From NCBI RefSeq assembly GCF_000969905.1, contig NZ_CP009519.1, positions 1-58,133 on the forward strand: a stretch of DNA of 58,133 nucleotides, read 5' to 3'. Position numbers and translations under genes: made by a program. This document shows, piece after piece, positions 2,982 through 58,133 of this stretch (within the stretch, counting starts at the first letter, position 1; each line of letters opens with the position of its first letter). Source of the stretch: Methanosarcina vacuolata Z-761 (GTDB lineage: Archaea > Halobacteriota > Methanosarcinia > Methanosarcinales > Methanosarcinaceae). Under the pieces are notes generated by a model. The model ran no database searches. It was not told where the DNA came from and saw only the letters and a program-made list of their open reading frames with translations.

Positions 2982-3091
2982 TTTCTAGGCTTAACTAGCA
3001 GCAGTTTTTGATTTTTGGCCAAATATGCCAAAATTTGAGAAATGACCCGAATAATTAAACAGCCTGAGAAGTCCTGTAATACAGAACAGAA

Positions 3092-3313: not shown

Positions 3314-3853
3314 AAAGATTCCTTTGCGAGTTATGCGATGATCCCACTAAAAAGTGGATATAACAAAATAACGATCCATATTGGATTAATAACAGATCAT
3401 TAAGTTAACTTATTACAAATTATAAAAACTTTTCCTCATAAAGTCAGATTTGAAAATATATAGTCTTTTCTGGTTAATTTAATTAAAACTTGTGTTTTGT
3501 GTATTGATATGAATTTTTTTGCAAAGTTAGACTAATTTTATATTATTACTGATATTTTGGTGTTTTTAAAGATAAATTAAAATGTGGTATTAACCAGCTA
3601 ATGAATCACAACTAGTTTAGTTATTTAGAGTTTATATTCATTTATTTTAATTTTTAAATTGTAATTTTAATAAATATGCAAATTTGTTCATAATTTTACA
3701 TATATTCAATAAGAGTATTAAATATTTTTCTTTTTTGTACACTTCACTTAATTTAGACGGATATGAATTTCTACTTAAATATATTTCTATAAATTGAAAC
3801 AGTTAAATATTTTATTGCATATCTTTCGATTGTGAGTCAGGGGGGACATACAG
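3314..3853. other. Intergenic region, promoter side of the GT2 operon
   Basis: About 540 very AT-rich bases with no supportable gene. The divergent genes on both sides mean promoters for both should lie here; several TTTAAATA/TATATA-like tracts exist but none is clearly placed. The stretch ends with a run of six G before the GT2 start. Confidence 0.5.
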
Positions 3854-4615: not shown

Positions 4616-4654
4616 TATAATAATTGGGAGATAATATTTCAAGGGGGTATACTT

Positions 4655-6828: not shown

Positions 6829-6848
6829 TGTAAACCGGGGGCTAGCTT

Positions 6849-12951: not shown

Positions 12952-12964
12952 ACATTCTTTCTCC

Positions 12965-14236: not shown

Positions 14237-14249
14237 ACATTATTTCTCC

Positions 14250-16007: not shown

Positions 16008-16045
16008 TATTTTTGGAGAGTAATATCAATAGTAATAAACATATA

Positions 16046-16060
16046 CACTATTTAAATTTT
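16046..16060 (-). promoter_or_regulatory. Probable TATA promoter of the peptidase operon
   Basis: Minus-strand AAAATTTAAATAGTG lies about 40 bases before ATG 16007, placing the start of transcription about 15-20 bases before that codon by the usual archaeal TATA spacing. Inferred from sequence only. Confidence 0.45.
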
Positions 16061-16254
16061 TTCATATTGTTGTATTTAATATAAGTAGACATAAATGGAT
16101 ATTTTGACCAGATAAGACAAAAATTAATAAGAAAATTGCTTTTAAAAAAATAGGTAATGACGCTTGCTATTCTTCTAAATAAAAAAATTGAGAGTTTTGC
16201 GTTCTTGAAAACTTCTCTAACAAAAATGCTTACAGAGGAGAATCAGCAAGAAAA

Positions 16255-16407
16255 TCAAAGGCGCCAAGAAACCTCATCCCGCACAGCCCAGACTGCCTGG
16301 GAAGAATCCGTGTCCATCTGAACTATTTGAGGATTAAACAAAATGATATTTACTACTAATGCTAATGATATCAGTCCAAAAAGAGAATAGAAGAATTGAA
16401 ATTTTAT
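16255..16407 (-). pseudogene. Remnant of a cohesin-like secreted protein, cut by the TnpB element
   Basis: Read on the minus strand from 16407 this continues the four codons at 17772-17761 (GTG AAT AAG CGT). The product starts MNKRIKFQFFYSLFGLISLA and goes on to NPQIVQMDTDSSQAVWAVRDEV, then a stop at 16255-16257. It aligns with the signal peptide and first strand of the 1146-residue cohesin protein (MNKLYRVLIFLVFFGLGIS, VPQTVQMDMGASQEVQIVMDEV). Only about 54 codons survive. It is the gene that the IS605-type element entered, and it once stood 13 bases behind the NHL gene as the other operon genes do. Confidence 0.75.
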
Positions 16408-16440
16408 CTTCCGAAGCGGGAAGACCCCTTCCTCGACAGG

Positions 16441-16458
16441 TTCAGGCGAAAGCCTGAA
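16441..16458 (+). repeat. Left-end hairpin of the TnpB element
   Basis: TTCAGGC-GAAA-GCCTGAA, a perfect seven-base-pair stem with a GAAA loop, 34 bases inside the left border. It is the expected subterminal hairpin recognised by TnpA. Confidence 0.75.
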
Positions 16459-16554
16459 TTTGGCAGGTAGGGGATGAGAGCGTCAACTTCCCCACAATCC
16501 GAAGATAATAAATTCGTATAACTTCATATAGTTACAAAGCGTGTATATAATGCT

Positions 16555-17655
16555 ATGAAAAGAGGAAACCGATACCGAATATACCCTAACAAAGAACAAA
16601 AAGTTCTTTTGGAAAAACACTTCGGTTGCACTCGATTCATATACAACAAGCTTCTTAATATTAAATCTACATTGTATAAAAAATTTAGAATAAGTATTTC
16701 TGAATTTGAACTTAATAATCACCTCCTAGTTTTGAAAGAAGTATATCCTTTCCTGAAAGAAGTCAATTCAGGAGCATTGCAACAAGCAAGTAGAAATCTT
16801 AATTCTGCTTTCAATCATTTTTTCAAAGATGGTTTTGGGTATCCTCAAAGGAAAAAGAAAAAAGATCATCATTTTTCCTTCCAGCTTCCACAAAACTATA
16901 ACCTTAATGTGGAAAAATCAGAAATCCAGCTACCAAAATTAGGCTGGATGAAGATTAAGGTACATAGAAATATTCAGGGAGAAATGAAAACATTAACAGT
17001 ATCCCGAACTCCTACAGGAAAATATTATGTTAGTATTTTAACAGACGATGGAGAAAAATATCCTGAACCTATACCGTTTTCTCATGCTACCTTAATCGGT
17101 GTAGATGTAGGACTTATGACCTTTGCTACTCTTTCTACTGGTGAAAAAATAGATAATCCTAAATTCTTGAAAACCTCCCTTGAAAGATTGAAATTCTTGC
17201 AAAGGAAAGTTTCAAGAAAAGTTATAGGATCAAAAAACCGGAGAAAGGCAGTATATAAACTTGCTAAGTTGCACGAAAAAATAGCTAATCAAAGACATGA
17301 TTTTCAGCATAAAGTTTCTAATAAGCTAATCAGTGACAACCAAGCAATAGCTGTAGAAACTTTGAATATTCAAGGAATGATGAAAAACCACAAACGAGCA
17401 CAAAGTACAGGAGATGCAGGATGGTATAGCTTTGTACTGAAATTACAGTATAAAGCTGAATGGTTCGGGAAAACTATATTGAAAATAAATCAATGGTTGC
17501 CATCCTCAAAAACCTGTAATGTTTGTGGCTATAAACATCCTAATTTAACCGAAGATATTAGAGAGTGGCAATGTCCCGATTGTGGTAATATCCATGATCG
17601 AGACATTAATGCCGCTATTAATATCAAAAATTTTGCCGTAGGAACTACGGTTTAA
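16555..17655 (+). CDS. tnpB: TnpB RNA-guided nuclease
   Basis: 366 residues, usual TnpB length. It has an N-terminal OrfB HTH-like region (RYRIYPNKEQ..FGCTRFIYN) and a RuvC-I motif GVDVGLMTFA (Asp184). RuvC-II is AVETLNIQGM (Glu268), the zinc finger is Cys321-x2-Cys324...Cys340-x2-Cys343, and RuvC-III is HDRDINAAINI (Asp348/350). All catalytic and zinc residues are intact, so the nuclease may be active. TnpB uses an RNA from the right end of its own element to cut the vacated donor site next to a short motif, which keeps the element in place. Here the predicted guide is the DNA just beyond 17760. ATG 16555 gives the standard start. Confidence 0.95.
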   Translation: MKRGNRYRIYPNKEQKVLLEKHFGCTRFIYNKLLNIKSTLYKKFRISISEFELNNHLLVLKEVYPFLKEVNSGALQQASRNLNSAFNHFFKDGFGYPQRKKKKDHHFSFQLPQNYNLNVEKSEIQLPKLGWMKIKVHRNIQGEMKTLTVSRTPTGKYYVSILTDDGEKYPEPIPFSHATLIGVDVGLMTFATLSTGEKIDNPKFLKTSLERLKFLQRKVSRKVIGSKNRRKAVYKLAKLHEKIANQRHDFQHKVSNKLISDNQAIAVETLNIQGMMKNHKRAQSTGDAGWYSFVLKLQYKAEWFGKTILKINQWLPSSKTCNVCGYKHPNLTEDIREWQCPDCGNIHDRDINAAINIKNFAVGTTV

Positions 17656-17760
17656 AGCCTGTGGACTAGGAAAAAACGGTAACCGCCTAGTATGAAACAG
17701 GAAGCTTCGCCCTCAAAAGCTTGATCCGCAAGGGTCAAGCGATAGGGCGAGGTAGTTCAC
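17640..17760 (+). ncRNA. Predicted omega (right-end) guide RNA scaffold
   Basis: The 3' end of tnpB and the following 105 bases fold into nested stems: GCTTCGCCCT pairs around GCTTGATCC-GCAA-GGGTCAAGC and closes on AGGGCGA. The block ends at GGTAGTTCAC, the element's right border. By analogy with other TnpB systems the RNA would run past the border, and its guide would be ACGCTTATTCACAGTTCC (17761 on). That matches the restored empty site next to TTTAT. A close but degraded copy of this scaffold is at 50780-50915. Confidence 0.65.
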
Positions 17761-17772
17761 ACGCTTATTCAC
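17761..17772 (-). pseudogene. First four codons of the gene split by the TnpB element
   Basis: Minus strand GTG AAT AAG CGT, the start of the cohesin-like remnant that continues at 16407. GGAGACAGGAACT precedes it, and it lies 13 bases after the stop of the NHL gene, the same spacing as in the two intact junctions of this operon. Confidence 0.7.
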
Positions 17773-17785
17773 AGTTCCTGTCTCC

Positions 17786-19099
17786 TTAAAGTAGACCATA
17801 AAGTATTACAACATCATCAAAATCGATGTTATCATTATTATTATAGTCAAAAAGAATAACAGGAGCATTTTCTTCTATCCACTCCATGTTATCATAGTAT
17901 GCCACTACATCATCAAAGTCCACGTTTCCGTTTCCATTGATATCCTCACAGAGACCATCATGGTTAAAGTCAGTTGGAGGATTAGTGTAACCTGGGAAAA
18001 CTACATTCTCAAAAACATTAATTGTAGCTAATGCTGAATCCGTACCGTTTTCATTGCTTGCTGTCAGATTGACTGTATAAGTTTCTGCAGTTATAAACTC
18101 ATGAACTGGATTACTTTCGTAAGTATCAATAACTCCATCGTTTTCAAAGTCCCAGGCAATAGATTCTGCATTTTCTGACAGGTTTGTAAACTGGACAGTT
18201 AGAGGAGCAAAACCGCTGGTAACATTAGCAGTAAAGTCTGCGTGTATATTGTCATTATATTGATACACCTGATAGTCCCCAGAAGCAAGCACATATAAGT
18301 TGTCATTGGCCACGACCAGTGCAGTTGGATAACTAAGCCCGGTATATTGAGTTAAATAACTAAAGTTACTGTCATACTCAATCACCCTGTTGTTGTAGTA
18401 GTCAGCTACATAAATATTTCCAGACGGACTGTTCGCGACTGCTATACTGCTATTAAATTGTGTGTTACCAGTTCCTTTGCTACCTAAACTTGAGACATAA
18501 TTTCCATCTAAATCAAATTTCTGTACCCTGTAATTACCCATATCAGCAACATATACATAATTTCCACTTACAGTGATTCCAGCTGGCGATTTCAGACTTC
18601 CATTATCTGATCCTGGTGTACCCCAGCTTGTTAAATAGCTGCCCGAAGAGTCTAGTTTCTGAATCCTGTTATTTTCCATATCTGAAACATATATATTCCC
18701 TGAAGAATCCAATGCAATCCCAGTAGGAAAATTAAAGTACCCATTTTCAGTCCCAGTACTGCCCCAGGTATTTAATCGAGTACCGGCTGAATTGAATTTC
18801 TGGATTGAATCGTTCACAGTCGCATAGATATTTCCAGCTGAATCGATTGCAATATCTCTAGCAGATATGTTGAATTCTGTGATATATTCGCCATTTCCGC
18901 TGAATTTCTGTACCCGGTTATCAAGCTCAGCTACATAGATATTACCGGAAGTATCAGTTGCAATTCCACTCATGCCGTAAAATTGCCTTTCACCATTTCC
19001 AAATGAACCCCATGTCTGCGGAGATGTAAATTGAGCCGAAGCAATTGAGACAAGGGAAAGAGCACCAACCAGTGCTAATATCATTACTAATTTCTTCAT
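17786..19099 (-). CDS. Secreted NHL-repeat/PKD protein with dockerin
   Basis: 437 residues. Signal peptide 1-22 (MKKLVMILALVGALSLVSIA). About six NHL repeats (25-285), each with a GIALDSSGNIYVSDMENNRI-like core, should fold as a beta-propeller. One PKD domain (about 286-365) and a dockerin (about 368-437) with loops DINGNGNVDFDD and DYNNNDNIDFDD follow; the linker is again FPGYTNPP. It starts two bases after the stop of the preceding gene with GGAGG in that gene's last codons, so it is translationally coupled. NHL propellers usually bind protein or glycan partners. A docked, extracellular binding module is the likely role. Confidence 0.85.
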   Translation of the reverse strand: MKKLVMILALVGALSLVSIASAQFTSPQTWGSFGNGERQFYGMSGIATDTSGNIYVAELDNRVQKFSGNGEYITEFNISARDIAIDSAGNIYATVNDSIQKFNSAGTRLNTWGSTGTENGYFNFPTGIALDSSGNIYVSDMENNRIQKLDSSGSYLTSWGTPGSDNGSLKSPAGITVSGNYVYVADMGNYRVQKFDLDGNYVSSLGSKGTGNTQFNSSIAVANSPSGNIYVADYYNNRVIEYDSNFSYLTQYTGLSYPTALVVANDNLYVLASGDYQVYQYNDNIHADFTANVTSGFAPLTVQFTNLSENAESIAWDFENDGVIDTYESNPVHEFITAETYTVNLTASNENGTDSALATINVFENVVFPGYTNPPTDFNHDGLCEDINGNGNVDFDDVVAYYDNMEWIEENAPVILFDYNNNDNIDFDDVVILYGLL

Positions 19100-19101
19100 C
19101 T

Positions 19102-21513
19102 TCAGGCCTCCAGTGTAATAGTATGCGTCCCAGTCGACAGATCCATCCAGAAAATCGTATCCACTCCATTGGTTTTTGTATTCAGTGCTACACCATCAAG
19201 TTTAGGAGAGTAAGTTCCTTCGACTCTCATAGAAAAGCCCTTTACTGCGTCAGGATTGCGATTCACAACAGTGTAAGTATTCGCTCCTGTGCATTTCACT
19301 TCTACATTGCTTGCAGCAATCCAGTAATCAATATACTCAGATACGGTTGGATTCCAGAGCCTACCTGCTTGTTTTTGGGCTGAGATATTGCTCAATAACC
19401 CATCAAAGGTTTCATTGATTTCATGCGTGGATTTATTATAATAATAGTCAGAAGACGACGAATTGTCAGGCCAATAATCATGCCATATACTTAACCCGTA
19501 AGTTGACAGCATGTCATCAATTGTACTGTTACCGTAACAGGTAAGTGCCAGTCCTTTTCCTGTAGCGCATGATTTCCACTGATAAAGAGAAGTACCATTG
19601 TCAAGTGCCAGATTTGTGTTTTGCCAAACGACATCAACAGGCAACCCAACTGAGCGAACCTTGGATGTACTGAGGTCTCCTTCAGCCGTTACATCAATAA
19701 AAGCCCAGGCATATGGCATGTCATACTGCTGGAACAAATCCATAATGTAATACTCGCTTGCAGGATCCCATCCAAGGCTCTTTAATTGAGAGTTTCTGGC
19801 ACCACTAGCCAGACCGTGATCTATCCAATTCCGACAGGTATAATTTGTAGCATACCAGGGTAGATAAGTTTCTGTCATACTACGGTCAGGAAGACCTTCA
19901 TTTACTCTTGAGGTAAAACTATGCGGCGTTATTTCAAAACCGTGATCATACATTTCATCAGTTACCGATTTCAGCGCAGGACTATCCAGGCCTTCCCCAC
20001 CATACGACGAAACCGCAAATACAGACCAGGTCCCTGTAAGATTATGACCAATGAAACCTTTTTTTCCGTAAACAGGACTCGTAGTATTATTGGTTCCATA
20101 CATAACAGTCCGCAGTGAATCGTGATCTGTATAATCTGCGTGTTCTGCAAAAATTAAGGCACCCAAATATCCAGAAGGAACAGGCATAGGAGTTAACTGA
20201 GGTGAAGAAAGCGGAAAGTCCAATGAACTAGTTCTAGTAACACCAGCATCCCTGGTTTGATAATATGAATATACCTCTTTACCGGTCTCATTATACAGTA
20301 CATTGCATTGAACCTCTGCATTGTCTGTGTACAGCATAACGTTATTTCCATTAATCGTGTTCAGGCCTTCTCCATAGAATTCATATGCACTGCCACCATT
20401 TACAGACACGCCGTCTTTTCTGGTCTGAGTCTGTCCCAAATAAGTAACTGAATGATTAAGATTAAAAGAGTCTTTAGATAACAAACAGGTATCTTGAACA
20501 CTACGATTCTTTCCTGTGTATGTTAAAACAGCACTTGACCCAGGAGCATAGCAGTCTTTCCATTGAACGCCATTAATTGCGGCTTCTACAAGCAAACAGC
20601 TAGCCAGTGATTCATTATTATTCTGAAAAAAAGGCGTCCCTACAGAGCTATAAACATCCAAATTATTATCCAATACATTTAAACCATTATCAGACTGCTG
20701 AATCGCATATGACCCCATATACCTGGGTAACCCACCATCACCATAAACCAGTTTTTTAATGATGGTTATATCATCAGGAGAAACACACCTTAAACTCTTA
20801 TAATTTTGTAAAACCTCATTCTGGGAAAGTGACCTATTGTAGAGTCTAAAAGTATACGTACTACAGTTACTGTAGGTTAATCCAGAACCAAAGCCCATGG
20901 TGATATTTTTAGTGTTCCTTACTATCGGTGAATCCCAGATACGAGGCTCAGCTGAATCCATCCCATTTACATAAATGTGAGTAACATTATTATCATAAGT
21001 TGCTACGATATGGTATAGCTGGCCAGCAACAAGATTGATGTTTGAGTTATACCCTCTTTGACCGCTCTCCAAGACTGCACTAAAACGGATATTATTGTAA
21101 GGATCATCAGGTGAACAACTCAGATACCAGCCATTAAGTGGTCCGCTACTATACTTGCTCACAAGTGATCCATATCTCGAGAATGTATTAATTGAGCCAA
21201 AGAATTCAATCGATATAGGACCGGAAACATCAACCTGTTCATTACCAGAAATCTCTATCTTACTATCAACGCCATTAAGGTTTATGTAATTCGCACCAGT
21301 TGATTGATTTGTCTCTTGAGTTACATTCGTAGCATAGCCAGTATTATTATTTCCGCTGAGATCTACCAGTGTATCCCCAGATAAACTACCGTTATAATAA
21401 ACAACCAACCCATCTGTTACCGGTACTACACATGTTACAGGTGCTGCTTGAGCACATGAAACGAGCAATAACACTCCCATTACTATTAGTAAAAAAAACC
21501 GATTATTTACCAT
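19102..21513 (-). CDS. Large secreted protein: LamG domain plus unknown catalytic-like region
   Basis: 803 residues. Signal peptide 1-23, then a LamG/concanavalin-like domain (about 27-240; GLVVYYNGSLSGDTLVDLSG, IVATYDNNVTHIYVNG, YTFRLYNRSLS). The remaining 550 residues share long blocks with the paralogue at 22320-24746: YGDGGLPRYMGS, SPQLTPMP-PSGYLG/FG, H-AD---DSL-T-MYGTN, GFEI-PH, WIDHGL, WHDY, WNPTVS-YIDYW. The conserved His/Asp set is what a deacetylase- or glycosidase-type barrel would need, but I do not recognise the family. ATG 21513 is preceded by AAGGGAATG. It has no dockerin itself, but is coupled to the dockerin-bearing NHL gene. Confidence 0.8.
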   Translation of the reverse strand: MVNNRFFLLIVMGVLLLVSCAQAAPVTCVVPVTDGLVVYYNGSLSGDTLVDLSGNNNTGYATNVTQETNQSTGANYINLNGVDSKIEISGNEQVDVSGPISIEFFGSINTFSRYGSLVSKYSSGPLNGWYLSCSPDDPYNNIRFSAVLESGQRGYNSNINLVAGQLYHIVATYDNNVTHIYVNGMDSAEPRIWDSPIVRNTKNITMGFGSGLTYSNCSTYTFRLYNRSLSQNEVLQNYKSLRCVSPDDITIIKKLVYGDGGLPRYMGSYAIQQSDNGLNVLDNNLDVYSSVGTPFFQNNNESLASCLLVEAAINGVQWKDCYAPGSSAVLTYTGKNRSVQDTCLLSKDSFNLNHSVTYLGQTQTRKDGVSVNGGSAYEFYGEGLNTINGNNVMLYTDNAEVQCNVLYNETGKEVYSYYQTRDAGVTRTSSLDFPLSSPQLTPMPVPSGYLGALIFAEHADYTDHDSLRTVMYGTNNTTSPVYGKKGFIGHNLTGTWSVFAVSSYGGEGLDSPALKSVTDEMYDHGFEITPHSFTSRVNEGLPDRSMTETYLPWYATNYTCRNWIDHGLASGARNSQLKSLGWDPASEYYIMDLFQQYDMPYAWAFIDVTAEGDLSTSKVRSVGLPVDVVWQNTNLALDNGTSLYQWKSCATGKGLALTCYGNSTIDDMLSTYGLSIWHDYWPDNSSSSDYYYNKSTHEINETFDGLLSNISAQKQAGRLWNPTVSEYIDYWIAASNVEVKCTGANTYTVVNRNPDAVKGFSMRVEGTYSPKLDGVALNTKTNGVDTIFWMDLSTGTHTITLEA

Positions 21514-21943
21514 GAGATCTACATTCCCTTTTTAGTTCGGTGATTATCAACTTCCAGCTGCTGTCACATGTATTAAGGCGCATGTTGGCACTACCACAGC
21601 TCCTTTCTAACAAGAACATGTGAATTCTTTTTTCAGGGCAAGGTGACAGTAGTGATGAAAACCTCAAATTATCGAATAATCTTCGTGTGTTGCCTGCTTT
21701 CAAGAAATATCACATATATAAAATATAAATACTGTTGTGAATGATTAGTGTTCCCATCGTATATAACACTTACTAAAATAAATGAAACTCTAAGAAGTAA
21801 GGAATATTTATCGTTTAGAAATGATTCAAGTATAATACCAAGGTATTTGTTGCCAAGAATCATTATTGAGATAATGAAAGTATGGATCAATTTCTGAACT
21901 GCAAATTTGAAGTTATATTTTTATCATTCCTTAGCATTGAACC

Positions 21944-21984
21944 CATGAACTTCAAGGAAGCTAAAGACCCAGGGGTTTTACGGA
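21944..21984 (-). repeat. Degenerate IS605-type right-end relic
   Basis: Plus strand ATGAACTTCAAGG, AAGCTAAAGACCCAGG, GGTTTTACGG. It matches the order GTGAACTACC / CTAAAGACTT / GGGGTTTTACGC seen at 1310 and, inverted, at 37191. No transposase is attached. Confidence 0.5.
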
Positions 21985-22101
21985 TTCTGTTCCAAAATCT
22001 AGTGATTTTTGCATTTTTGGATTGAAAATCTGAATTCGCAAGAAGAATCCAGTTATCATCAAAACCAATATTCGATATCTAAAGACTTCAATTCTTAAGT
22101 C

Positions 22102-22143
22102 GTATCACAAGGATTGTGACTAGTATCACAAGGATTGTGACTA
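22102..22143. repeat. Tandem palindrome, two 21-base copies
   Basis: Two exact, adjacent copies of GTATCACAAGGATTGTGAC plus TA. Each contains the dyad TCACAA-GGA-TTGTGA. The arrangement is like a double operator or a binding site for a dimeric regulator, about 590 bases before the 803-residue gene. The regulator is unknown. Confidence 0.7.
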
Positions 22144-22319
22144 ATTACAAGGTCCAATGATTTTGAACTTTACATTCATCACTAGATTTTGGTACTGAGT
22201 CGTTTTACGCTTCTTTAGATAAAATTGTCAATTTTCCAAAAACTTCACAAAACCTTGATTTTGTAAACTTTCACCTACAAATACTCCTATGAAAAAAATT
22301 AAATTGTTTAAGGAATTTT

Positions 22320-24746
22320 TTAAATCCTCGCAAGTGTCAGTAAATGTGTACCAGGTGAAAGGTCCATCCAGAATACCGTGTCGTTTCCGTTCTTTTTGGT
22401 AGTCAAATCATTGCCATCTATTTTCACGGTATATGATCCAGTGACCCGCATAGCATAACCAGGGACAGGATCAGAATTATGGTTGATCAAAGTGTATGTG
22501 TCTTGACCAGTACACTTACATTCAACGTTACATGCAGCTCTCCAGTAGTCGATATACTGACTTACAGTTGGGTTCCAAATCCTACCAGCTGCATTTTGTT
22601 CAGATATATTTAGCAAAAGATTGTCATATTTCTCGTTGATGCTGTAAGGATTGCCTTTAGTAAAATAATAGTCTTCAAAGGTAGCATCATTTTGCGCAGT
22701 GTAATCATGCCAGAAACAGACCCCATAACTGTTAACCATAGTTTGAAGTGTTTCTTTGTTGAAATAATCCAAAGCAGTTTTATCTGGTGCCCAGGTTGAA
22801 GTCCATTCGTACATTGGCGTGCCATTGTCCCAGGTAAAATTTGTATTCGTCCAAACAACATCATAGGGAAGCCCAAGAGACTGAATACGACTCGTAGAAA
22901 GACCGTTTCTTACCGGAACGTCTTGATACGCCCAGGCATACTGAAAACCATATTCGCGCATTAAATCCCCTATATAATACTGCGGTGAGTTTTTGTCCAG
23001 GCCCAAACTCTTTAAACCAGTGTTTCTATTTCCTCCATTTAACCCATGGTCAATCCAATTTTGTGAAGAGTAACTGCTGGAGTACAAGGGTAAATAGTAT
23101 CCAGTAGTCTCACGAGTTGGGTTACCTTCGCCAGCCGAACCAATTACATTGTGAGGTATTATTTCAAAACCTTCTTCCTGCATATCATCAAGTATTGATT
23201 TAAACGAGGCGTTATCAAAACCAACTCCACCGCCAGAAGAAGCTGCAAATGCTGCCCATGTGCAGATTAGCCCATGCCCGATATACCCTTTTGTACCATA
23301 AGTAGAATTATTTACGTCGTTGGTTCCGTACATCATTGTTTTCAGGGAATCCGGATCCTGGGCATCAGCATGAATTGCAAAACTTAGAGAACCAAAGTAT
23401 CCACTCGGACAGGGCATTGGAGTCAATTGTGGAGAAAAAAGAGGCAGCTCAACTGAATTGCTCCGGGTAGTTCCAGACGTGCGATTTTGATAATAGTTAT
23501 AGATAGCTGCACCTGATGAGTCCAAGATACAATCACTTTGAATCTCACCATTATCGGTGTAGGCCTGAACAGTGTCTTCTGAGATTGTGTTCAATCCATC
23601 ACCATAAAATTGAAAAGCATTACCAGTGACTGGAACTGCATCTTTACGAACCAGTGAGTCTGCAGTATAAGTCACAGAATTTGAAAGATGAAGAGAATTA
23701 TTTGTAAGACTGATATCTTCCAGCCTGTTTCGGTTATTCCCAGAAAATGACAGTGAAGCAGAAGAACCAGGTGCATAATAATTCTTCCATTTTACACCTG
23801 AGATTAAAAAGTCCGAAAGGACGTAATTGGTCTCTTCGCTTCCGTTATCCTGATAATATGGCGTTGATACCGACCCAAGAGAAGACATATTCGAGTCAAC
23901 CACGCTCACTCCGGATCCTGACTGGCTCATAGCATGTGAACCCATATATCGAGGCAACCCACCGTCACCGTATGCCTTTTTCTTCAGGTCGACGATGTCC
24001 GAAGGAAGCTCTGGCACATATCTCCATCTGTCGTTTTGATAATTCTGCTGTACTTCAGATGATGTCAAAGCGCGATCATAGAGTCTGAAAGCCAACATAT
24101 TGCAATTGAGATAATTCAGACCATTCTCTGCATAAGCAATCGACGTGTTGTAATTATTTCCGGACATTGAGGCCGCCCATATTGGACTATTATCAGTGGA
24201 CGAATCAACACCATTGACATAAACGTGTGCGATATTTCCGTCGTATGTTGCCACAATATCATAAACTTGACCAGCTACAAAAGGAATATCGGATCTAAAG
24301 TGATGCAAAACCCCGTCCGAGTCGTACAATCCAAATACTATTTTTTTTAAAGAAGGATCACTCCTGCACGACAGATACCACCCTGTACCTTCTTCGTCGG
24401 AATATTTCGAAACGATTGCCCCGTAACTGGAAAACTCGTTGATTGAGCCTATGAATTCTATAGAGATTTCGGATGTGATGTTTGTGTTCGCGTTGTTGAG
24501 AATATTTGCCTGGCTATTCGAACCTGAAAAAGAAACATAATTAGCGCCTGTGGATAACAGCATCCCTTGAGTGGCATTTATAAGATACCCATTATTGTGA
24601 TTCCCAGATTCATCCAGTAGAATATTATCAGTGATATTCCCATTATACGAGGCCACTAATCCGTTTGTTACGGGTGATGCTACTCCAGGAAATGCCAACA
24701 TGGAGAGCAGCAACAACCCTAATAAAACTTTAGATATATTTATCAT
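22320..24746 (-). CDS. Large secreted protein: LamG domain plus unknown catalytic-like region (paralogue)
   Basis: 808 residues. Signal peptide 1-23 (MINISKVLLGLLLLSMLAFP). LamG-like domain (about 26-245) with GLVASYNGNITDNILLDESG and IVATYDGNIAHVYVNG. The rest matches the 803-residue protein block for block, including YGDGGLPRYMGSHA, IHADAQDPDSLKTMMYGTN, GFEIIPH, WIDHGL, FWHDY and WNPTVSQYIDYW. ATG 24746 follows AAGGAATGAAAAACT. It was copied by gene duplication but has its own 800-base upstream gap, so it is separately expressed. A surface polysaccharide-acting enzyme is a guess from the LamG module and neighbours. Confidence 0.8.
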   Translation of the reverse strand: MINISKVLLGLLLLSMLAFPGVASPVTNGLVASYNGNITDNILLDESGNHNNGYLINATQGMLLSTGANYVSFSGSNSQANILNNANTNITSEISIEFIGSINEFSSYGAIVSKYSDEEGTGWYLSCRSDPSLKKIVFGLYDSDGVLHHFRSDIPFVAGQVYDIVATYDGNIAHVYVNGVDSSTDNSPIWAASMSGNNYNTSIAYAENGLNYLNCNMLAFRLYDRALTSSEVQQNYQNDRWRYVPELPSDIVDLKKKAYGDGGLPRYMGSHAMSQSGSGVSVVDSNMSSLGSVSTPYYQDNGSEETNYVLSDFLISGVKWKNYYAPGSSASLSFSGNNRNRLEDISLTNNSLHLSNSVTYTADSLVRKDAVPVTGNAFQFYGDGLNTISEDTVQAYTDNGEIQSDCILDSSGAAIYNYYQNRTSGTTRSNSVELPLFSPQLTPMPCPSGYFGSLSFAIHADAQDPDSLKTMMYGTNDVNNSTYGTKGYIGHGLICTWAAFAASSGGGVGFDNASFKSILDDMQEEGFEIIPHNVIGSAGEGNPTRETTGYYLPLYSSSYSSQNWIDHGLNGGNRNTGLKSLGLDKNSPQYYIGDLMREYGFQYAWAYQDVPVRNGLSTSRIQSLGLPYDVVWTNTNFTWDNGTPMYEWTSTWAPDKTALDYFNKETLQTMVNSYGVCFWHDYTAQNDATFEDYYFTKGNPYSINEKYDNLLLNISEQNAAGRIWNPTVSQYIDYWRAACNVECKCTGQDTYTLINHNSDPVPGYAMRVTGSYTVKIDGNDLTTKKNGNDTVFWMDLSPGTHLLTLARI

Positions 24747-25310
24747 AGTTTTTCATTCCTTTTGTTCAAGGTATCGATATCAGTAGCATGTTTTTAGAAA
24801 TTATCACATTATTCATATTAAATTTATGTCTTGATAATATAACGTATAACATGTATATAAACCCATAAACTGTTTAAATAATTATAGACTGTTTTGCTGT
24901 TATGCGGGTATGCATGCAAGTGAGCAATAATATATGTATAAATGTATACAAATATCCAAGTATCCAAGTATTCAAGTAAGATAATATACATCAGAAAAAA
25001 GAAAGCAAAATTTACCGTAACCTTGCTTCAACCTCTGAGCAGGAGACACCTTTCTCAAAATGAAGCGTCAGGCTAAGAATTCAGGATAGGTGACTGACAT
25101 TAATTTCAAGCATCATTTGTGATTTGGTCGAGATGTACATTCAAGCATCATTTGTGATTTGGTCGAGATGTACAGGTCTCATCTGTAAACCATTTTTACT
25201 TAACATGAGTATAGCACTCTACAATACCTAGACAGACATATAACTATATAAACAAATTAATATATAACAAATATTGTTAGACAAATCTTCAAGTATGAAA
25301 GTATACATAA
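24747..25310. other. Intergenic region with promoter-like tracts
   Basis: No gene. On the minus strand, TTTATATACATGTTATACG (about 24838-24860) and TTTAAACAGTTTATGG are candidate TATA tracts for the 808-residue gene. A 35-base direct repeat follows (25105-25174). Confidence 0.45.
25105..25174. repeat. Two tandem copies of a 35-base unit
   Basis: Two identical adjacent copies (25105-25139 and 25140-25174) containing CATCATTTGTGATTTGG and TCGAGATGTACA. Located between the secreted-protein block and the parA repeat array. Function unknown. Confidence 0.85.
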
Positions 25311-25675
25311 ATACAAAAATACTTACATATAAAAATACTTACATACAAAAATACTCATATACAAAAATACTTACATACAAAAATAATTATATACAAAAAT
25401 AATTACATACAAAAATACTTACATACAAAAATACTTACATACAAAAGTACTCACATACAAAAATACTCATATACAAAAATACTTACATACAAAAATAATT
25501 ATATACAAAAATACTTACATACAAAAATAATTACATACAAAAATAATTACATACAAAAGTACTCACATACAAAAATACTCATATACAAAAATACTCATAT
25601 ACAAAAATACTCATATACAAAAATACTCATATACAAAAAGACTCATATACAAAAATACTCATATACAAAAAAACA
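25311..25675. repeat. Array of about 23 16-base repeats, candidate partition site
   Basis: Unit AYATACAAAAATAMTY, strictly 16 bases long, about 23 times in a row. The variants at the fourth-last positions (ACTT, ACTC, AATT) alternate between copies. It lies 290 bases upstream of parA. Iteron-like direct repeats beside a ParA and ribbon-helix-helix pair are typical centromere sites of low-copy plasmids; that role is inferred from position. A degenerate single unit recurs around 25755-25770. Confidence 0.85.
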
Positions 25676-25967: not shown

Positions 25968-26732
25968 ATGGCCAGAACAGTAACTATTAACAATGTTAAA
26001 GGGGGGGTCGCCAAAACAACTACTGCAACAAACCTAGCTGCAGGGCTAGCTCGAAAAGGCAAACGGGTCTTATTAATAGACTCTGATCCTCAAGCAAACG
26101 CATCTTCAAATCTATATCCTGGATTAAGAGCAGAAAAAACAATAAAGGACTTGTTCCAGGGAACCCCGATAAACGAAGTTATTTCGCCATCCGTAGAAAC
26201 CGGATTGGATATTATTCCTTCTTGCCTGGCATTCTCAACAATTGAACTGGAACTGGCTGCTCATCTTGCCAGGGAAACAGTTCTAAAAAGAGCACTGAAA
26301 CCAATCGAAGAAAATTACGATATTATATTAATTGATACTCAGCCATCGGTCGGAGTGATCCCTATTAATGCATTGTGTGCAGCTGATGAGGTCATTATTC
26401 CTGTGCATGAGGCATACGCTCTGGATGCCATGAGCCAAATGGTCAATGTTATACTACAAGTCAAGCAGACACTGAATCCAGGTCTTGTGATAGGAGGAAT
26501 CCTGCTGACAATGTATGATCCAAGGACTACCCTGGCAAAAGAGGTCCGGGAAAGGTTGCTGAAAAATTTTGGTGCAATTCTGTTCGAGACAACTATCCCG
26601 AGAAATATTCGGCTAGCCGAATGTCCAACTCACAAAAAGTCAATCTTTGAGTATGCACCTGAATCAGCAGGGGCAGTAGCATACCAAACATTAACAGAAG
26701 AAGTTATGAAACGATGGGGGATGACAAAATGA
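25968..26732 (+). CDS. parA: ParA-type partition ATPase
   Basis: 254 residues. Deviant Walker A KGGVAKTT at 11-18, LLIDSDPQANAS at about 35-46 (Walker A'), and IILIDTQPS (Walker B). Length and motifs are those of Soj/ParA. There is no N-terminal DNA-binding domain, which is the type Ib plasmid arrangement. ATG 25968 follows GAGGTATATGC. The ATPase would move plasmid copies apart using its partner, encoded by the next gene (four-base overlap), bound to the 16-base repeats upstream. Confidence 0.95.
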   Translation: MARTVTINNVKGGVAKTTTATNLAAGLARKGKRVLLIDSDPQANASSNLYPGLRAEKTIKDLFQGTPINEVISPSVETGLDIIPSCLAFSTIELELAAHLARETVLKRALKPIEENYDIILIDTQPSVGVIPINALCAADEVIIPVHEAYALDAMSQMVNVILQVKQTLNPGLVIGGILLTMYDPRTTLAKEVRERLLKNFGAILFETTIPRNIRLAECPTHKKSIFEYAPESAGAVAYQTLTEEVMKRWGMTK

Positions 26733-27088
26733 GGACAGCTATAGGTAATACGACGATCGATGAAAACGACAATATAGGAGCTCTGCTGGGGCAGCAGCAA
26801 ACTCATGTTAACGAAAACACAGAAAGCTGGAAAGAAACACATGCAGGTAAAACCGAAAACGAGATAATGAGAAGTCAAGAAAAAATTACTGACAACGAGA
26901 AACTAAAACACAACCGATCTGCTAAATTTACTGATTTGGAAGTAGAGCAGTTAGAAAAGATAATGCTTGCAATCGGAACCGATAAAGTGTCCAAGGCCCT
27001 AAGATGGTGCCTGAGTAAAGCATGGGAAACACACAGGGATGAAATTGAAAAGATGGCTGAGGAAAAAAAGAAGATTGGTACGCTGTAA
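26729..27088 (+). CDS. ParA partner, ribbon-helix-helix-like DNA-binding protein
   Basis: 119 residues from ATG 26729, which overlaps the parA stop as ATGA; an upstream in-frame ATG (26714) is less likely. The N-terminal 60 residues are polar and probably disordered. The C-terminal part, SAKFTDLEVEQLEKIMLAIG followed by TDKVSKALRWCLSKAW, fits a strand-helix-helix pattern as in RHH/CopG proteins, with a charged tail. In type Ib systems the small RHH protein binds the centromere repeats and represses its own operon. Function is inferred from the position and fold pattern. Confidence 0.75.
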   Translation: MRTAIGNTTIDENDNIGALLGQQQTHVNENTESWKETHAGKTENEIMRSQEKITDNEKLKHNRSAKFTDLEVEQLEKIMLAIGTDKVSKALRWCLSKAWETHRDEIEKMAEEKKKIGTL

Positions 27089-27559: not shown

Positions 27560-28285
27560 GTGATTGAAACATGTAAAGTGGAAAACAATAACATAAGGCG
27601 TGGTAGTAGTAAATAAAACATAATAACAAGTGAAACACGTAAAGTGGAAAACGATAGCATGAAAGCATGATAGTAGTAAGTGAAACATGTAAAGTGAAAA
27701 ACGACAACAGGAAAGCATGATAATACTGAAAGTGAAACATGTAAAGTGGAAACGGTAGTAGGAAAAAAACGCTAGAATAGTGAAAGTGAAACATGTAAAG
27801 TGAAAAACGACAACAGGAAAGCATGATAATACTGAAAGTGAAACATGTAAAGTGGAAACGGTAGTAGGAAAAAAACGCTAGAATAGTGAAAGTGAAACAT
27901 GTAAAGTGAAAAACGACAACAGGAAAGCATGATAATACTGAAAGTGAAACATGTAAAGTGGAAACGGTAGTAGGAAAAAACGCTAGAATAGTGAAAGTGA
28001 AACATGTAAAGTGAAAAACGACAACAGGAAAGCGTGATAATACTGAAAGTGAAACATGTAAAGTGGAAACGGTAGTAGGAAAAAAACGCTAGAATAGTGA
28101 AAGTGAAACATGTAAAGTGAAAAACGACAACAGAAAAGCGTGATAATACTGAAAGTGAAACATGTAAAGTGGAAACGGTAGTAGGAAAAAAACGCTAGAA
28201 TAGTAATGAATGAAACGTGTAAAGTGGAAAACGATAGCATGAAAGCATGATAATAGTGAAAGTGAAACATAGAAAGTGCTGTAAT
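27560..28285 (+). repeat. ORB-like repeat array, left arm of the origin
   Basis: Thirteen intact cores and one degraded core of TGAAACATGTAAAGTGGAAA type (GTAAAGTG at 27573, 27639, 27689, 27741, 27795, 27847, 27901, 27953, 28006, 28058, 28112, 28164, 28219), spaced 50-66 bases and mostly 52-54. Two half-units alternate (GGTAGTAGG-type and CGACAACAGG-type), forming five copies of a 105-106-base higher-order repeat. The reverse complement of the core recurs on both sides of orc1/cdc6. TTTCCACTTTAC resembles archaeal origin recognition boxes in its TTCCA element. Confidence 0.85.
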
Positions 28286-28639: not shown

Positions 28640-29190
28640 CACTGATTTCCACTTTACACGTTTCACTTTCACTAATAAAATTGTTATATATTAAATGTAT
28701 TATTTATATAGTACCTCTAAAGTGTACATGTCTAATATTCACTCTAATGAATTATAATCTAAAAACATTGTTTTATTCTTTTCTTTATTTATATTTTTTA
28801 TATATAGTATATGTCCGTAACTTAGGGATATCATTTTTTTAATTGTAAATTATACCTTTTGCTGATTTCCACTTTACGTGCTTCACTAACGTATTACTCT
28901 TTTACATTTGTCATTTAAAAATTATAATATTATTCCCTTTATTGTTTTCCACTTTACATGTTTCACTTTTACTGATAATATTATTTATATATTAAATATA
29001 TGGTTTATATAGTACGCGTAAAATAGAACGGTATTGTGTCTACTTTGATGCACCCTAACCTAAAGCATTATTTTACTTTGATATCTTTTACATTATTATA
29101 AATATCATTATGTTGCATGCTGAACAAGATGTACTATTTTTAATCAGAAAATTGTATTACATTGATTTCCACTTTACACCTTTCACTTTC
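28640..29190 (-). repeat. Four inverted ORB-like cores upstream of orc1/cdc6
   Basis: Cores TTTCCACTTTAC plus TTTCAC occur at 28645, 28865, 28945 and 29165, spaced 220, 80 and 220 bases, in the orientation opposite to the left array. Three are followed by a similar block (TATTAAAT, then TTTATATAGTAC). The last such block is directly in front of the initiator gene and contains its probable TATA box (29224-29232), so the initiator may regulate itself by binding there. Confidence 0.8.
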
Positions 29191-29242: not shown

Positions 29243-30532
29243 GTGGACGTGGATAATATTAACTCTGATACACCACAACCTAAAACATTATTCAATTTTA
29301 ATAATATTAAAATTTTTAAAAACCCGCATATATTAGATACTGGTTATGTTCCAGATGTGCTGGTTGGTAGAGACGATGAAATACGAGCCGTGGCTGATAT
29401 ATTTTATCCAATATTTATACATGGGACCCCTGGACATGCTTTTATCTATGGACCCCCTGGAGCTGGTAAAACTGTAGTTTTGGAGCACGTGTTTAGACAA
29501 TTATATCTCGAAGCTGAAAGTAGCGGCAATTTTCCAGATGGACTTAATTTAAAACACATTACTGTCTCGTGCAAAAAACACGATACAACTGTAAGAATTC
29601 TGATGTATTTAATTGCGGAACTGGGGTATACAGGTAAGGTATCTAAGCGCGGGGTCACTTCTGGATATTATTATGACATATTTTATAAGGCTTTAAAAGA
29701 AAAAAGTTATTCATTAACAATTATTTTTGATGAAATAGATCGTCTTAGGGATGATAATATCCTGTATAATTTTAGTCGTTCAGGTGAACTTAAAGACTTA
29801 AACGAGGGACAGTTTATACACATTATAGGGGTTTCCAATTCAGGTTTATTCATTAATTCGCTTGATCCAAGAGTAGACTCTTCTATGCAAAGGGAAACTA
29901 TTATATTTCCTCCATATAACGAAGATCAACTTATACAAATTCTAAATATGCGCGTACCATTAGCGTTTTACCCTAATGTTGTAAGTGAGGATACAGTCAA
30001 CAGATGTGCCAAAGAAGCTGCAGAGGATGAAGGTGATGCAAGACGTGCTATCTATCTTCTTCAGACAGCGGGACATATTGCAATAAAGACATCATGTTAT
30101 ACTGTTCAGCCAGCGCATGTGGTACTGGCAGCACAAAAAATAAAAGAAGATATCAGTTTACAGTTTGTATTAAATATGTCCTATCAGGAAAAATTTGTGT
30201 TGCTTGCAATGTTAAATACCGATATATATCTTAAAAAAGGAAAATATTTCACTACAGGAGACGTTTATCGAATTTATTATGACATGTGTAAATTTGTTGG
30301 CGAAGAAGAATTCTCTTTAGCTGCAATATCACAAAAGGTATCTAAATTTAAAATGATGGGAATTGTCAATGCTAATACGACAAGCAAGGGGAGAGGTGGA
30401 CTTACATCTCAAATAGTATTTATTGGCGATCCGACAACACTAAAAAATGCTATCTTTAAAGATGGTAAATTTATACGATTTGTAACATATGTGCCAGATG
30501 TAAAAAAGATATGCTCTACTCAAATATGGTAA
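29243..30532 (+). CDS. cdc6: Orc1/Cdc6 replication initiator
   Basis: 429 residues from GTG 29243 (or GTG 29249). AAA+ ATPase: Walker A GPPGAGKT (70-77), Walker B IIFDEIDRL (160-168), sensor 1 HIIGVSNS (193-200), sensor 2 EGDARRAI (263-270), then a C-terminal winged-helix region (about 310-429). All functional motifs are intact. It binds origin boxes and loads the MCM helicase; no MCM is encoded here, so host MCM would be used. It stands inside a dense field of about 25 ORB-like repeats, which marks this as the replication origin. The start is very close to the TATA tract, so the message may be nearly leaderless. Confidence 0.95.
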   Translation: MDVDNINSDTPQPKTLFNFNNIKIFKNPHILDTGYVPDVLVGRDDEIRAVADIFYPIFIHGTPGHAFIYGPPGAGKTVVLEHVFRQLYLEAESSGNFPDGLNLKHITVSCKKHDTTVRILMYLIAELGYTGKVSKRGVTSGYYYDIFYKALKEKSYSLTIIFDEIDRLRDDNILYNFSRSGELKDLNEGQFIHIIGVSNSGLFINSLDPRVDSSMQRETIIFPPYNEDQLIQILNMRVPLAFYPNVVSEDTVNRCAKEAAEDEGDARRAIYLLQTAGHIAIKTSCYTVQPAHVVLAAQKIKEDISLQFVLNMSYQEKFVLLAMLNTDIYLKKGKYFTTGDVYRIYYDMCKFVGEEEFSLAAISQKVSKFKMMGIVNANTTSKGRGGLTSQIVFIGDPTTLKNAIFKDGKFIRFVTYVPDVKKICSTQIW

Positions 30533-30553
30533 TTTTCATCACTATAAGAGCAC

Positions 30554-31385
30554 GTTTCCACTTTACAGGTTTCACTCACTAACGTGGTTGAATTTTGAAA
30601 TTCTGAGTAAGATTTCAGAGTTTGGCCTTACTGGCTATTTATAAATTCTTAAAGACATGTGCCTTGAAAAAGGATCTGCTCTATGTAAATATGGTAATTT
30701 CCATCACTAAAAGAGCATGTTTCCACTTTACGGGTTTCACTCACTAATGTATATGCTCTACGTAAATATGGTAATTTCCATCACTATAAAAGCATGTTTC
30801 CACTTTACGGGTTTCACTCACTAACGTGATTGCATTTTGAAGTTCTGAATAAGATTTCAGAGTTTGGCCTTACTGGCTATTTATAAATTCTTAAAGATAT
30901 ATGCCTTGAAAAAGGATATGCTCTACTTAAATATGGTAATTTTCATCACTATTAGAGCACGTTTCCACTTTACAGGTTTCACTCACTAACGTGGTTGAAT
31001 TTTGAAATTCTGAGTAAGATTTCAGAGTTTGGCCTTACTGGCTATTTATAAATTCTTAAAGACATGTGCCTTGAAAAAGGATCTGCTCTACGTAAATATG
31101 GTAATTTCCATCACTATAAAAGCATGTTTCCACTTTACGGGTTTCACTCACTAATGTATCTGTTCTATGTAAATATGGTAATTTCCATCGCTATAAAAGC
31201 ATGTTTCCACTTTACAGGTTTCACTCACTAATGTATCTGCTCTATGTAAATGTGGTAATTTCCATTGCTATAAAAGCATGTTTCCACTTTACAGGTTTCA
31301 CTCACTAATGTATCTGCTCTATGTAAATGTGGTAATTTCCATCGCTATAAAAGCATGTTTCCACTTTACAGGTTTCACTCACTAA
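30554..31385 (-). repeat. ORB-like repeats, right arm, phased 165/77
   Basis: Eight copies of GTTTCCACTTTAC + (A/G)GGTTTCACTCACTAA at 30554, 30719, 30796, 30961, 31126, 31203, 31280 and 31357. Spacings are exactly 165, 77, 165, 165, 77, 77 and 77 bases. The 77-base unit also contains TAAATATGGTAATTTCCATC and TATAAAAGCATG; the 165-base spacing adds an 88-base insert with TTCAGAGTTTGGCCTTACTG. Orientation is opposite to the array at 27560-28285. Confidence 0.9.
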
Positions 31386-32931: not shown

Positions 32932-33579
32932 TTATAACATTCCCCAGGCAGTAAGCTGTATTTTAATATCCCTAAGTTCGTCAGTTGAAAAAGCAAGACC
33001 TTGGTAGTGCTTCATGCTGGTTAGGTTGTCATGCCCCTGGCGCAGACAAACTGTAGATTCCAACATGCCTGCGGCAATACACCAGCTCTCCAGGGTCTTT
33101 CTTGTTGTTTTTGCTGAGAGTCCATAGGGGTTGATGTCTGCATCCTCTGTCCACTTCCTGAGATCTCTATTCCAGTTGCTTTCGGCAGGTGGTTTACGGG
33201 CTTCAAAAAAGTCATCTAATAGAAGTTCAAACATGCTTGGTAGAGGGTGGATAGTCCTTTCTTGCTGGGTTCTTTTATGTTTCTTCTGGGCTTCGTCTGG
33301 TAGGTGAATAATATTCTTCTTTTTTAGATACCATTCTTTATGATCCCAGAGCCTCTGAACTTCAATATACCTCATACCAGTGATCATGAGAACGTCAAAA
33401 AGAGTTCGGTGTCGCTTCTGTGGGATTACATTTTTAATGCGCTGGTATTCCGTGGGTACTAAGATCCGGATTTCTCCATTCAAATAATGATGAATTGCCT
33501 CAGGATCCCGTTTGAGTTGCAAAACAGGATATTTGTTCACTTCTGTCGTTTTCACATGACTATTTTTCTTTGTTGGCAT
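32932..33579 (-). CDS. Tyrosine recombinase, catalytic domain only
   Basis: 215 residues, shorter than usual (about 300) because the N-terminal core-binding domain is missing. Catalytic positions: Arg70 (ITGMRYIEV), Lys near 101-103, Arg160 in AKTTRK (the first His of the usual HxxR box is Lys157), His183 in RQGHDNL and nucleophile Tyr192 in MKHYQG. ATG 33579 follows GGTGAGTGG. Such truncated recombinases are common on archaeal plasmids and viruses; it may resolve plasmid dimers or integrate the element. Near the origin and partition genes it belongs to the maintenance region. Confidence 0.85.
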   Translation of the reverse strand: MPTKKNSHVKTTEVNKYPVLQLKRDPEAIHHYLNGEIRILVPTEYQRIKNVIPQKRHRTLFDVLMITGMRYIEVQRLWDHKEWYLKKKNIIHLPDEAQKKHKRTQQERTIHPLPSMFELLLDDFFEARKPPAESNWNRDLRKWTEDADINPYGLSAKTTRKTLESWCIAAGMLESTVCLRQGHDNLTSMKHYQGLAFSTDELRDIKIQLTAWGML

Positions 33580-47511: not shown

Positions 47512-49374
47512 ATGAATCTGAACTTAATATTTTGCAATAAAAGGAGCGTTTTTTTCCTATATATACTTCAGTTCATATTGATCACTTATTCTTTAATCGT
47601 GGCACATAACTCACCTGCTAAAGGTTACGAAGCCTCTGTTTATACAGGTACACCTTTGATTGTGTGGTTTTCTTTAGGGTTCTGCATATTCCTAAGTGTT
47701 GTCATTGTTATATCTCAAATTGTAAATGAGCATGTGGAATCAAAAAATCTTTGGATTTTTGGCTTACTAATTATATATATTGTTTATGTTATAGCTTTGT
47801 CTCTATTTGTTATCAGGAATTATTATGGATGGAGTTTTAATGGTGATCCGGGTGCTCATATTGGACATGTTAAGTCTATCGTTGAAAGTGGTCATATTCC
47901 TGATGAACTTTTTTATCCTTTTGTTCATGTTTATGCATCACAAATTTCATTGATCCTTAATTTGGATATTATTATTTTACATAAATATATTCCTTTACTC
48001 TTTGGAATGTTGTATGTACCTTTTATGTATATTTTTTCAAAGTCAATATTGCCAAATAGAGCTCAGCTTATATTGACTACTGTTGCAAGTATGACTTTTA
48101 TAAATGGATGGTACTTAAATTTTACACCAAATGCTCTAGCTAATCATTTTATCCCACTTTTTCTTTTTATATTTTTAAAAATATTAACTAAAACCAGTGC
48201 AGAATGGGAGATTCTAATTGTAATTCTAGTGTTTATGTTTCCAATATTTCATCCTGTTCCCACTCTTTTCTTAATTATCTTGCTTGTATCTTTTCACTAT
48301 CCAAGTAAGTTGCTTTCAGTACTGAAAATAAATTCGAAAACTTCTATTAACGATTGTTCCATAAGAACCAAGCACATCTTTAAATTTACGTTAGTCTTGC
48401 TATTATTTGTATGGGGAGTTACGTGGATATCTTCTTTTGGTGTTTGGGACCGAACAATAAGAAACATTAGTATTTTAATTAACGAAGGAGGAACTACAAA
48501 ACTAGATTCTCTTGTATCAGATGTGCATACTGCTGAGGGTTATGGATATAATGTCATTGACTATGTTATTAAAACTCTTGGCTCAACGGCAATTTATTTT
48601 TTAGTTTCTTTACTTTGTATTCCATTATTATTGAAAGAGAGAAGGTTAAACTATTCAAGCCTAGGGTTAAAAACTATATTTTCATTGTATGGGCCGTTAT
48701 TTTGTACGGTTTTATTTTTCTTTTTACTTTATTTTTTAAACTTAGCTTTTGGACCATTAAGAATAATTTATTATATAGTTGTAATATGCACAATTTTCAT
48801 TGGATATTTTCTAAACCATGAAATTAGGAGAGTTAGGTATCAGTACAGGGGTTCGATTTTAAAAATCGTCTGTTTGTGTATTATTTTTATGTTAGTTGGG
48901 GTGTTCTTCAATGGCATGATGCTTCTATATCCCTCAAATTATAAATTAGAATCAAACCCCCAAACCACAGAAACTAGTTTTGAGGGAATTAAATGGTTTT
49001 TTAAGACACGTAATATCGATATGGAAATCACTGGAATGTATATAGTTCCATACAAATTTGCGCTTATATTGTTGATTCCAGTAGAAAAGATACAAATGGA
49101 ATGGACAATACCGAAAGAACTAGCCGTCCCTTATCATTTTGGATATAATAATTATTCATCTCTTTCTGAATCTTACATTCGCAAAAATGATTTATATCTA
49201 GCAATAACCGAGAGAGACAAGGTTACAGCAGAAAAAATATTTCCTGATATTGCAAAAGATAGGTGGACTTTAAGTGATTTTGAAAAATTAAATTTTGATT
49301 CAAGTCTTGATAAAATTTATTCAAGTAATGGATTTGAATTATATTATGTAAACTGCCGGTATATTGATACTTAA
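47512..49374 (+). CDS. Large multi-membrane surface-glycan protein, intact paralogue
   Basis: 620 residues with about 12 hydrophobic helices and a soluble C-terminal domain (about 490-620). The N-terminal block NSPAKGYEASVYTGTPLIVW, the loop NGDPGAHIGHVKSIVESGHI between helices, and FPIFHPVPTLFL are shared with the split gene at the window ends (GKPATGYELSIYWATPSIFW, GRGDNADYVGYAMDIS). An acidic residue pair in the first outer loop (DPGAH/DNADY) is typical of membrane GT-C-type transferases, so a polymerase or lipid-linked sugar transferase is the best guess. ATG 47512 has no strong Shine-Dalgarno. Confidence 0.8.
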   Translation: MNLNLIFCNKRSVFFLYILQFILITYSLIVAHNSPAKGYEASVYTGTPLIVWFSLGFCIFLSVVIVISQIVNEHVESKNLWIFGLLIIYIVYVIALSLFVIRNYYGWSFNGDPGAHIGHVKSIVESGHIPDELFYPFVHVYASQISLILNLDIIILHKYIPLLFGMLYVPFMYIFSKSILPNRAQLILTTVASMTFINGWYLNFTPNALANHFIPLFLFIFLKILTKTSAEWEILIVILVFMFPIFHPVPTLFLIILLVSFHYPSKLLSVLKINSKTSINDCSIRTKHIFKFTLVLLLFVWGVTWISSFGVWDRTIRNISILINEGGTTKLDSLVSDVHTAEGYGYNVIDYVIKTLGSTAIYFLVSLLCIPLLLKERRLNYSSLGLKTIFSLYGPLFCTVLFFFLLYFLNLAFGPLRIIYYIVVICTIFIGYFLNHEIRRVRYQYRGSILKIVCLCIIFMLVGVFFNGMMLLYPSNYKLESNPQTTETSFEGIKWFFKTRNIDMEITGMYIVPYKFALILLIPVEKIQMEWTIPKELAVPYHFGYNNYSSLSESYIRKNDLYLAITERDKVTAEKIFPDIAKDRWTLSDFEKLNFDSSLDKIYSSNGFELYYVNCRYIDT

Positions 49375-50673: not shown

Positions 50674-50779
50674 ATACTGTTTTTCATTTTCTTATTTCAT
50701 AGTTAGTGTTATCCATGTTAATTTGTAGTACAAACAACGTTTGTTCAGGAAAATAGTATATTTTTCTTTATCCTGTTGC

Positions 50780-50915: not shown

Positions 50916-50987
50916 TTGTGTCTATTGAACCGTATTCAAAATAATATTTTATTAAAAAGCTGCACAAATGTGCTTAAAAATGTGGGG

Positions 50988-55477: not shown

Positions 55478-55535
55478 ACCGAACACCTTAATTACATTTG
55501 TAAATTTTGGATACACCTATTGCATCGACTTTTGA

Positions 55536-57716: not shown

Positions 57717-58133
57717 ATGTTAAAATACTTTTCTAATAAGTTTCAGTTATTATCTACATCAATATCTTTTGTACTACTATCGTATTCTCTTTTCTTGATT
57801 GCAGGAAAACCAGCTACAGGATATGAGCTATCAATATATTGGGCTACACCGTCAATTTTTTGGATAGCTTTAATATTCAGTTTAATAAATGGTATATTTC
57901 TTTTATGGTCTTCTATTTCCACGGAAAACAGGAAACGATTTAACATAGGATTTTTCCAGGTAATTTTTTGTAATATTTTATTAGTTCTGCTTCCCAAATT
58001 AAGGAACTACACTCTGATCATGGGGAGAGGAGATAATGCCGACTATGTAGGATATGCAATGGATATAAGCATTTATGGCTATCTTCCTGATTACAATTTT
58101 TATCCATATACTTCCGTACTTATTTCTCAAATA
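57717..58133 (+). CDS. Large multi-membrane surface-glycan protein, 5' part
   Basis: From ATG 57717 the frame is open to the window end (139 codons): MLKYFSNKFQLLSTSISFVL, then GKPATGYELSIYWATPSIFW, then a helix, RGDNADYVGYAMDISIYGYL and YTSVLISQI. It aligns with the first part of the 620-residue protein at 47512 (NSPAKGYEASVYTGTPLIVW; GDPGAHIGHVKSIVESGHIP; FVHVYASQI). The last codon ends on the window's last base, and the frame at base 1 continues the alignment. See the first finding. Confidence 0.85.
   Translation, partial: MLKYFSNKFQLLSTSISFVLLSYSLFLIAGKPATGYELSIYWATPSIFWIALIFSLINGIFLLWSSISTENRKRFNIGFFQVIFCNILLVLLPKLRNYTLIMGRGDNADYVGYAMDISIYGYLPDYNFYPYTSVLISQI

Follow-up and report, generated by a model that had tools for sequence, protein, structure and literature searches.

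A probable complete circular plasmid of 58,133 bp from Methanosarcina vacuolata Z-761, with a record that starts inside a gene for a predicted membrane glycosyltransferase

Genes and features of the window

The window, the whole stretch of DNA analysed here, is the entire 58,133-bp contig of a two-contig assembly whose other member is the 4,505,752-bp chromosome. Both of its edges lie in open reading frames on the plus strand: the right-hand frame is open to the edge and comprises 139 codons, and the left-hand frame is open to the first base and comprises 442 codons followed by a stop. Envelope-glycan genes adjoin the left-hand frame, in the order flippase, glycosyltransferase, DUF354, WecB-type epimerase, a gene of unknown function and a further glycosyltransferase, and next to these are genes for large surface proteins. 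The preliminary description of this DNA had listed an orc1/cdc6 origin, a recombinase and partition genes; the initiator, the recombinase and a ParA-family gene were identified by family matches. The coordinates of all these features are given in Table 1.

Table 1. Location of genes, repeats and candidate functional sites in the window
Feature	Position	Strand	Basis or remark
Cut gene, 5' part (codons 1-139)	57717..58133	+	ORF open to right edge
Cut gene, 3' part (codons 140-581 and stop)	1..1329	+	In-frame join, intact homologues
In-window paralogue of cut gene (620 aa)	47512..49374	+	About 21-26% identical
Envelope-glycan genes adjoining cut gene	1392..9121	flippase -, rest +	
Large surface proteins	9511..24746	-	PKD, papain-lectin and LamG domains
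TnpB gene inserted among surface-protein genes	16555-17655	+	
Tandem array of 16-bp units (x 23), putative centromere	25303..25671	.	Upstream of parA
ParA-family partition ATPase	25968..26732	+	Pfam AAA_31, CbiA
Small ORF, probable partner of ParA	26714..27088	+	Overlaps end of parA; conserved 99% in Kolksee, 73% in MS/227
13 copies of 22-bp iteron GTGAAACNTGTAAAGTGGAAAC	27564..28231	+	Mostly within 106-bp tandem array
Four inverted iteron copies before orc1/cdc6	28645..29186	-	AT-rich stretch, 23% G+C; likely unwinding region
Orc1/Cdc6 replication initiator	29243..30532	+	Pfam Cdc6_lid, Cdc6_C, AAA; TIGR02928
Eight inverted iteron copies downstream of orc1/cdc6	30554..31378	-	
Tyrosine recombinase/integrase (215 aa), candidate dimer resolvase	32932..33579	-	Pfam Phage_integrase

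The two edges of the window form one gene

When base 58,133 is joined to base 1, the seam lies exactly between two codons, and the two edge frames become a single frame of 1,746 nt encoding 581 amino acids, with the sequence CTCAAATA followed across the join by AGTCAGAT. This agrees with the preliminary description, which had also reported that the joined protein keeps the register of the in-window paralogue after the residues SQI. Alignment of the two proteins gave the match described, with SQI-SQIVNVSALEVSKYIPSLF of the joined protein opposite SQI-SLILNLDIIILHKYIPLLF of the paralogue and no gap, and in an alignment of twelve sequences the ten homologues from other genomes were also gapless at the seam. 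An open frame across the join is in itself insufficient proof, as a frame at least as long, with 100 codons or more to either side of the join, arose in 116 of 5,000 random joins within the window (2.3%). The earlier estimate that the chance of two edges matching in this way is very small does not extend to the frame taken alone; as judged from these alignments, it is the register relative to homologues that carries the argument for circularity.

Overlapping ends were rejected as a signal of circularity, since the ends of the window do not overlap (longest exact overlap at most 5 bases). The repeated SQI-SQI at the seam was likewise ruled out as a duplicated end: the codons on the two sides differ (TCTCAAATA before the seam, AGTCAGATT after it), and the Kolksee gene described below has both triplets.

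Comparison with related plasmids showed the same region uncut. The plasmid of Methanosarcina sp. Kolksee (NZ_CP009523.1, 54,381 bp), a circular record, is the same replicon, near-identical (98-99%) and with most genes 94-100% identical. A rotated window (50001-58133 followed by 1-8000) aligned to it as one 16.1-kb piece at 99.0% identity, and the joined gene and its Kolksee counterpart MSKOL_RS00110, which lies uncut at 30446-32191 and starts at the base matching 57717, both measure 1,746 nt and differ by 28 mismatches without any indel. The halves of the gene are also adjacent and uncut in the plasmids of M. barkeri MS and 227 and in that of M. barkeri Wiesmoor, and further genomes hold intact homologues. 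Examined by homology, none of the four plasmids, whose records look from their consecutive accessions like one sequencing series that may have an assembly practice in common, continues into different DNA beyond either end of the window.

The order of blocks, A-B-C-D in the window, is C-D-A-B in the Kolksee record, whose own cut lies elsewhere, in the 106-bp array that precedes orc1/cdc6. The sequence of the window is continuous at that point, and each record therefore reads through the seam of the other. Given different cut points and mutual read-through, the block order is a circular permutation, which is not expected of two unit-length linear molecules with fixed ends. This bears on the reading of the contig as a linear plasmid, or as a fragment whose edges fell by chance in two members of one gene family. 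The contig is indeed written as a line without terminal overlap, and the genome holds several paralogues of the edge gene; nevertheless, in four plasmids the counterparts of the edges are the halves of a single uncut gene, with no indel relative to the 98% identical plasmid, and with the permuted order of the Kolksee record such a molecule becomes extremely improbable.

By homology across the join, the window is almost certainly a complete circular plasmid of 58,133 bp whose record starts at an arbitrary point inside one gene, as the preliminary description had proposed. Judged against the Kolksee gene, nothing is missing at the seam and nothing is duplicated. The break is an arbitrary record start only, and an ordinary one. 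Read in this way, the plasmid is complete and the two edge frames are one gene rather than two truncated ones; annotation pipelines that read the record as linear will miscall the edge gene.

The replication origin

The Orc1/Cdc6 protein scored 311 bits against TIGR02928 (cut-off 181), contains the AAA+, lid and C-terminal winged-helix domains, and is 100% identical to the Kolksee protein. Its gene is accompanied by 25 copies of the iteron at up to 3 mismatches, where the chance expectation is 0. Thirteen are on the plus strand upstream, and the 12 on the minus strand reach from the AT-rich stretch before orc1/cdc6 to the region behind the gene. When up to 2 mismatches were allowed, all 24 of the iterons in the genome were on the plasmid contig and 0 on the chromosome. 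Judging by family and position, Orc1/Cdc6 would bind the iterons and start theta replication there, and the AT-rich stretch is likely the region of unwinding.

Raw cumulative GC skew is lowest at 26,347 and highest at 51,006, two positions that divide the circle into arcs of 24.7 and 33.5 kb, with an amplitude greater than that of all 500 shuffles of 1-kb blocks. The minimum lies beside the origin region and the maximum not quite opposite, and gene orientation contributes to the skew, which would fit bidirectional replication from this region only roughly.

A search of the chromosome for the 24-34 kb region of the window found no copy, except for DUF1699 paralogues and an element of about 100 bp. 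An element integrated in the chromosome, or a set of tandem multimers, might also be assembled as a circle; the 4.5-Mb contig, however, holds neither the origin region nor the iterons, and Rfam and tRNA searches of the plasmid for an attachment site found none, including no tRNA gene. The features that suggest integration are the tyrosine recombinase encoded on the plasmid and the presence of part of the envelope cargo on a chromosome contig of another species (genome G027), where neither parA, orc nor integrase was found within the 60 kb examined. We regard an origin of the circle in integrated or multimeric DNA as most unlikely, and the autonomous plasmid as the reading to be retained. The chromosomal matches to 32274-32797 were at one point candidates for integrase copies and proved to be DUF1699 paralogues. 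The DUF1699 gene itself (32386-32793) is present in all the plasmids compared, and the chromosome has several paralogues of it that are 72-81% identical in DNA sequence.

Partition and recombination

ParA is 100% identical to its Kolksee counterpart and 93% identical to those of the M. barkeri MS and 227 plasmids. In the partition operon named by the preliminary description, ParA is clear; the partner is less so, the small ORF that overlaps the end of parA having no family match in Pfam or NCBIfam, and the 16-bp array is no more than a candidate for a centromere. By its position, the small ORF probably encodes a DNA-binding partner of ParA, and the array is a putative centromere. The number of 16-bp units differs between the two near-identical plasmids, with about 21 regularly spaced matches to the core motif in the window and 11, hence fewer units before parA, in Kolksee. 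The tyrosine recombinase, 93% identical in the Wiesmoor plasmid, is a candidate dimer resolvase. As far as family and position indicate, plasmid copies would be segregated by ParA and its small partner, and dimers would be resolved by the recombinase.

Circular assemblies also arise from headful packaging and the integrase matches phage families, yet a circularly permuted viral genome or a phage-plasmid in place of a plasmid is scarcely credible, given that ten proteins scanned against PHROGs included no structural protein (replication or integration matches only, plus one or two of unknown function) and that the remaining genes are for surface proteins and the biosynthesis of the envelope.

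Another Methanosarcina genome carries a broken copy of parA (G007:C11:392560-393205), 67-74% identical and interrupted by stops, near a relative of the glycosyltransferase encoded at 47512. It is possibly what is left of a decayed integrated plasmid.

The product of the cut gene

Sequence searches with the product of the joined gene gave little. Pfam has no match for it or for the 47512 paralogue, NCBIfam none for the paralogue, and the family alignment matched no PDB sequence. Searched with the joined protein alone, the genome contigs yielded no relatives; searched with the family alignment, they yielded seven. A structure model of a homologue 76-77% identical to the plasmid protein (and not of the plasmid protein itself; mean pLDDT 63) was compared with the PDB by Foldseek. 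Its best six matches are all GT-C enzymes, namely AftA, OST, DPY19, ArnT and, twice, PglB, only one of them at E < 0.001. A GT-C enzyme was expected to have a multi-spanning membrane fold and, in its first external loop, an acidic residue; in the alignment of the family D106 is invariant. With moderate confidence, then, and through the model of its homologue, the cut gene is predicted to encode a membrane glycosyltransferase of the GT-C fold. The neighbouring flippase, sugar-nucleotide and glycosyltransferase genes fit a membrane glycosyltransferase that depends on lipid-linked sugars. Such an enzyme would share the work on a cell-envelope glycan with the products of the flippase, glycosyltransferase and sugar-nucleotide genes.

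Related plasmids

A literature search found no paper on the plasmid of the window; PMC9674854 does cite the plasmid of M. barkeri 227, and M. barkeri strain CM1 lacks plasmids (PMC4582637). The large plasmids of Methanoperedens (PMC9674854) are likewise circular and encode ParA and an Orc1/Cdc6 flanked by repeats beside an AT-rich stretch. They differ in size (155-192 kb) and in cargo, and their circularity comes from reads, whereas that of the present plasmid comes from homology.

Closer relatives share the cargo and differ at the origin. In the plasmids of M. barkeri MS (NZ_CP009527.1) and 227 (NZ_CP009529.1), the cut gene is 76% identical and the flippase, WecB, DUF354 and LamG/PKD cargo about 56-90%, but the Orc1/Cdc6 is a different one (26% identical to that of the window) and the window iteron has no copy; other repeat arrays adjoin the initiator of the MS plasmid. 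The Wiesmoor plasmid (NZ_CP009525.1, 32,371 bp) carries the cut gene at 78%, the integrase noted above, and DUF1699, the flippase and one glycosyltransferase at 83-88%, while its Orc1/Cdc6 and ParA are only 27% and 48% identical and the window iteron is absent. The record of the M. barkeri 227 plasmid seems also to be cut in a gene, as a PKD protein (38941-39586) runs to its end, which would be an artefact of the record start like that of the window.

The low identity of Orc1/Cdc6 (26%), set against that of ParA (93%) in the MS and 227 plasmids, suggests exchange of the origin unit. The simplest reading of these comparisons is that initiator and iterons have been exchanged together, as a block, between plasmids with ParA and cargo in common. 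More tentatively, and with somewhat less than even confidence, we propose that the Methanosarcina plasmids form a family of cell-envelope islands in which the partition gene and the surface glycan and adhesin cargo are kept while initiator and iterons are exchanged. Replicons that differ in origin specificity would thus bear the same cargo, part of which lies on the chromosome of one other species, with the cut gene among the most widespread members of this cargo. The present plasmid is a further example of Methanosarcina plasmids largely given to the cell envelope, one in which the initiator-iteron unit varies among plasmids with the same cargo.

Variable segments and a small mobile element

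The Kolksee plasmid is without most of the 12.9-18.2 kb segment of the window (12914-18254), which holds PKD, papain-lectin and TnpB genes. Its edges fall in repeated DNA that codes for PKD, an arrangement suggesting that recombination between repeats removed or added the segment.

An element of about 102 bp with inverted ends (GGCTCTTCG and CGAAGAGCC) is present at 31798-31899 of the window, and the chromosome carries it in over 30 places. One additional copy is found in Kolksee, exactly at the position of window 36418-36425 and flanked by duplicated AGAAGATG, so that the window here represents the empty site. Comparison of the filled and empty sites identifies the element as a mobile MITE that duplicates 8 bp of its target.
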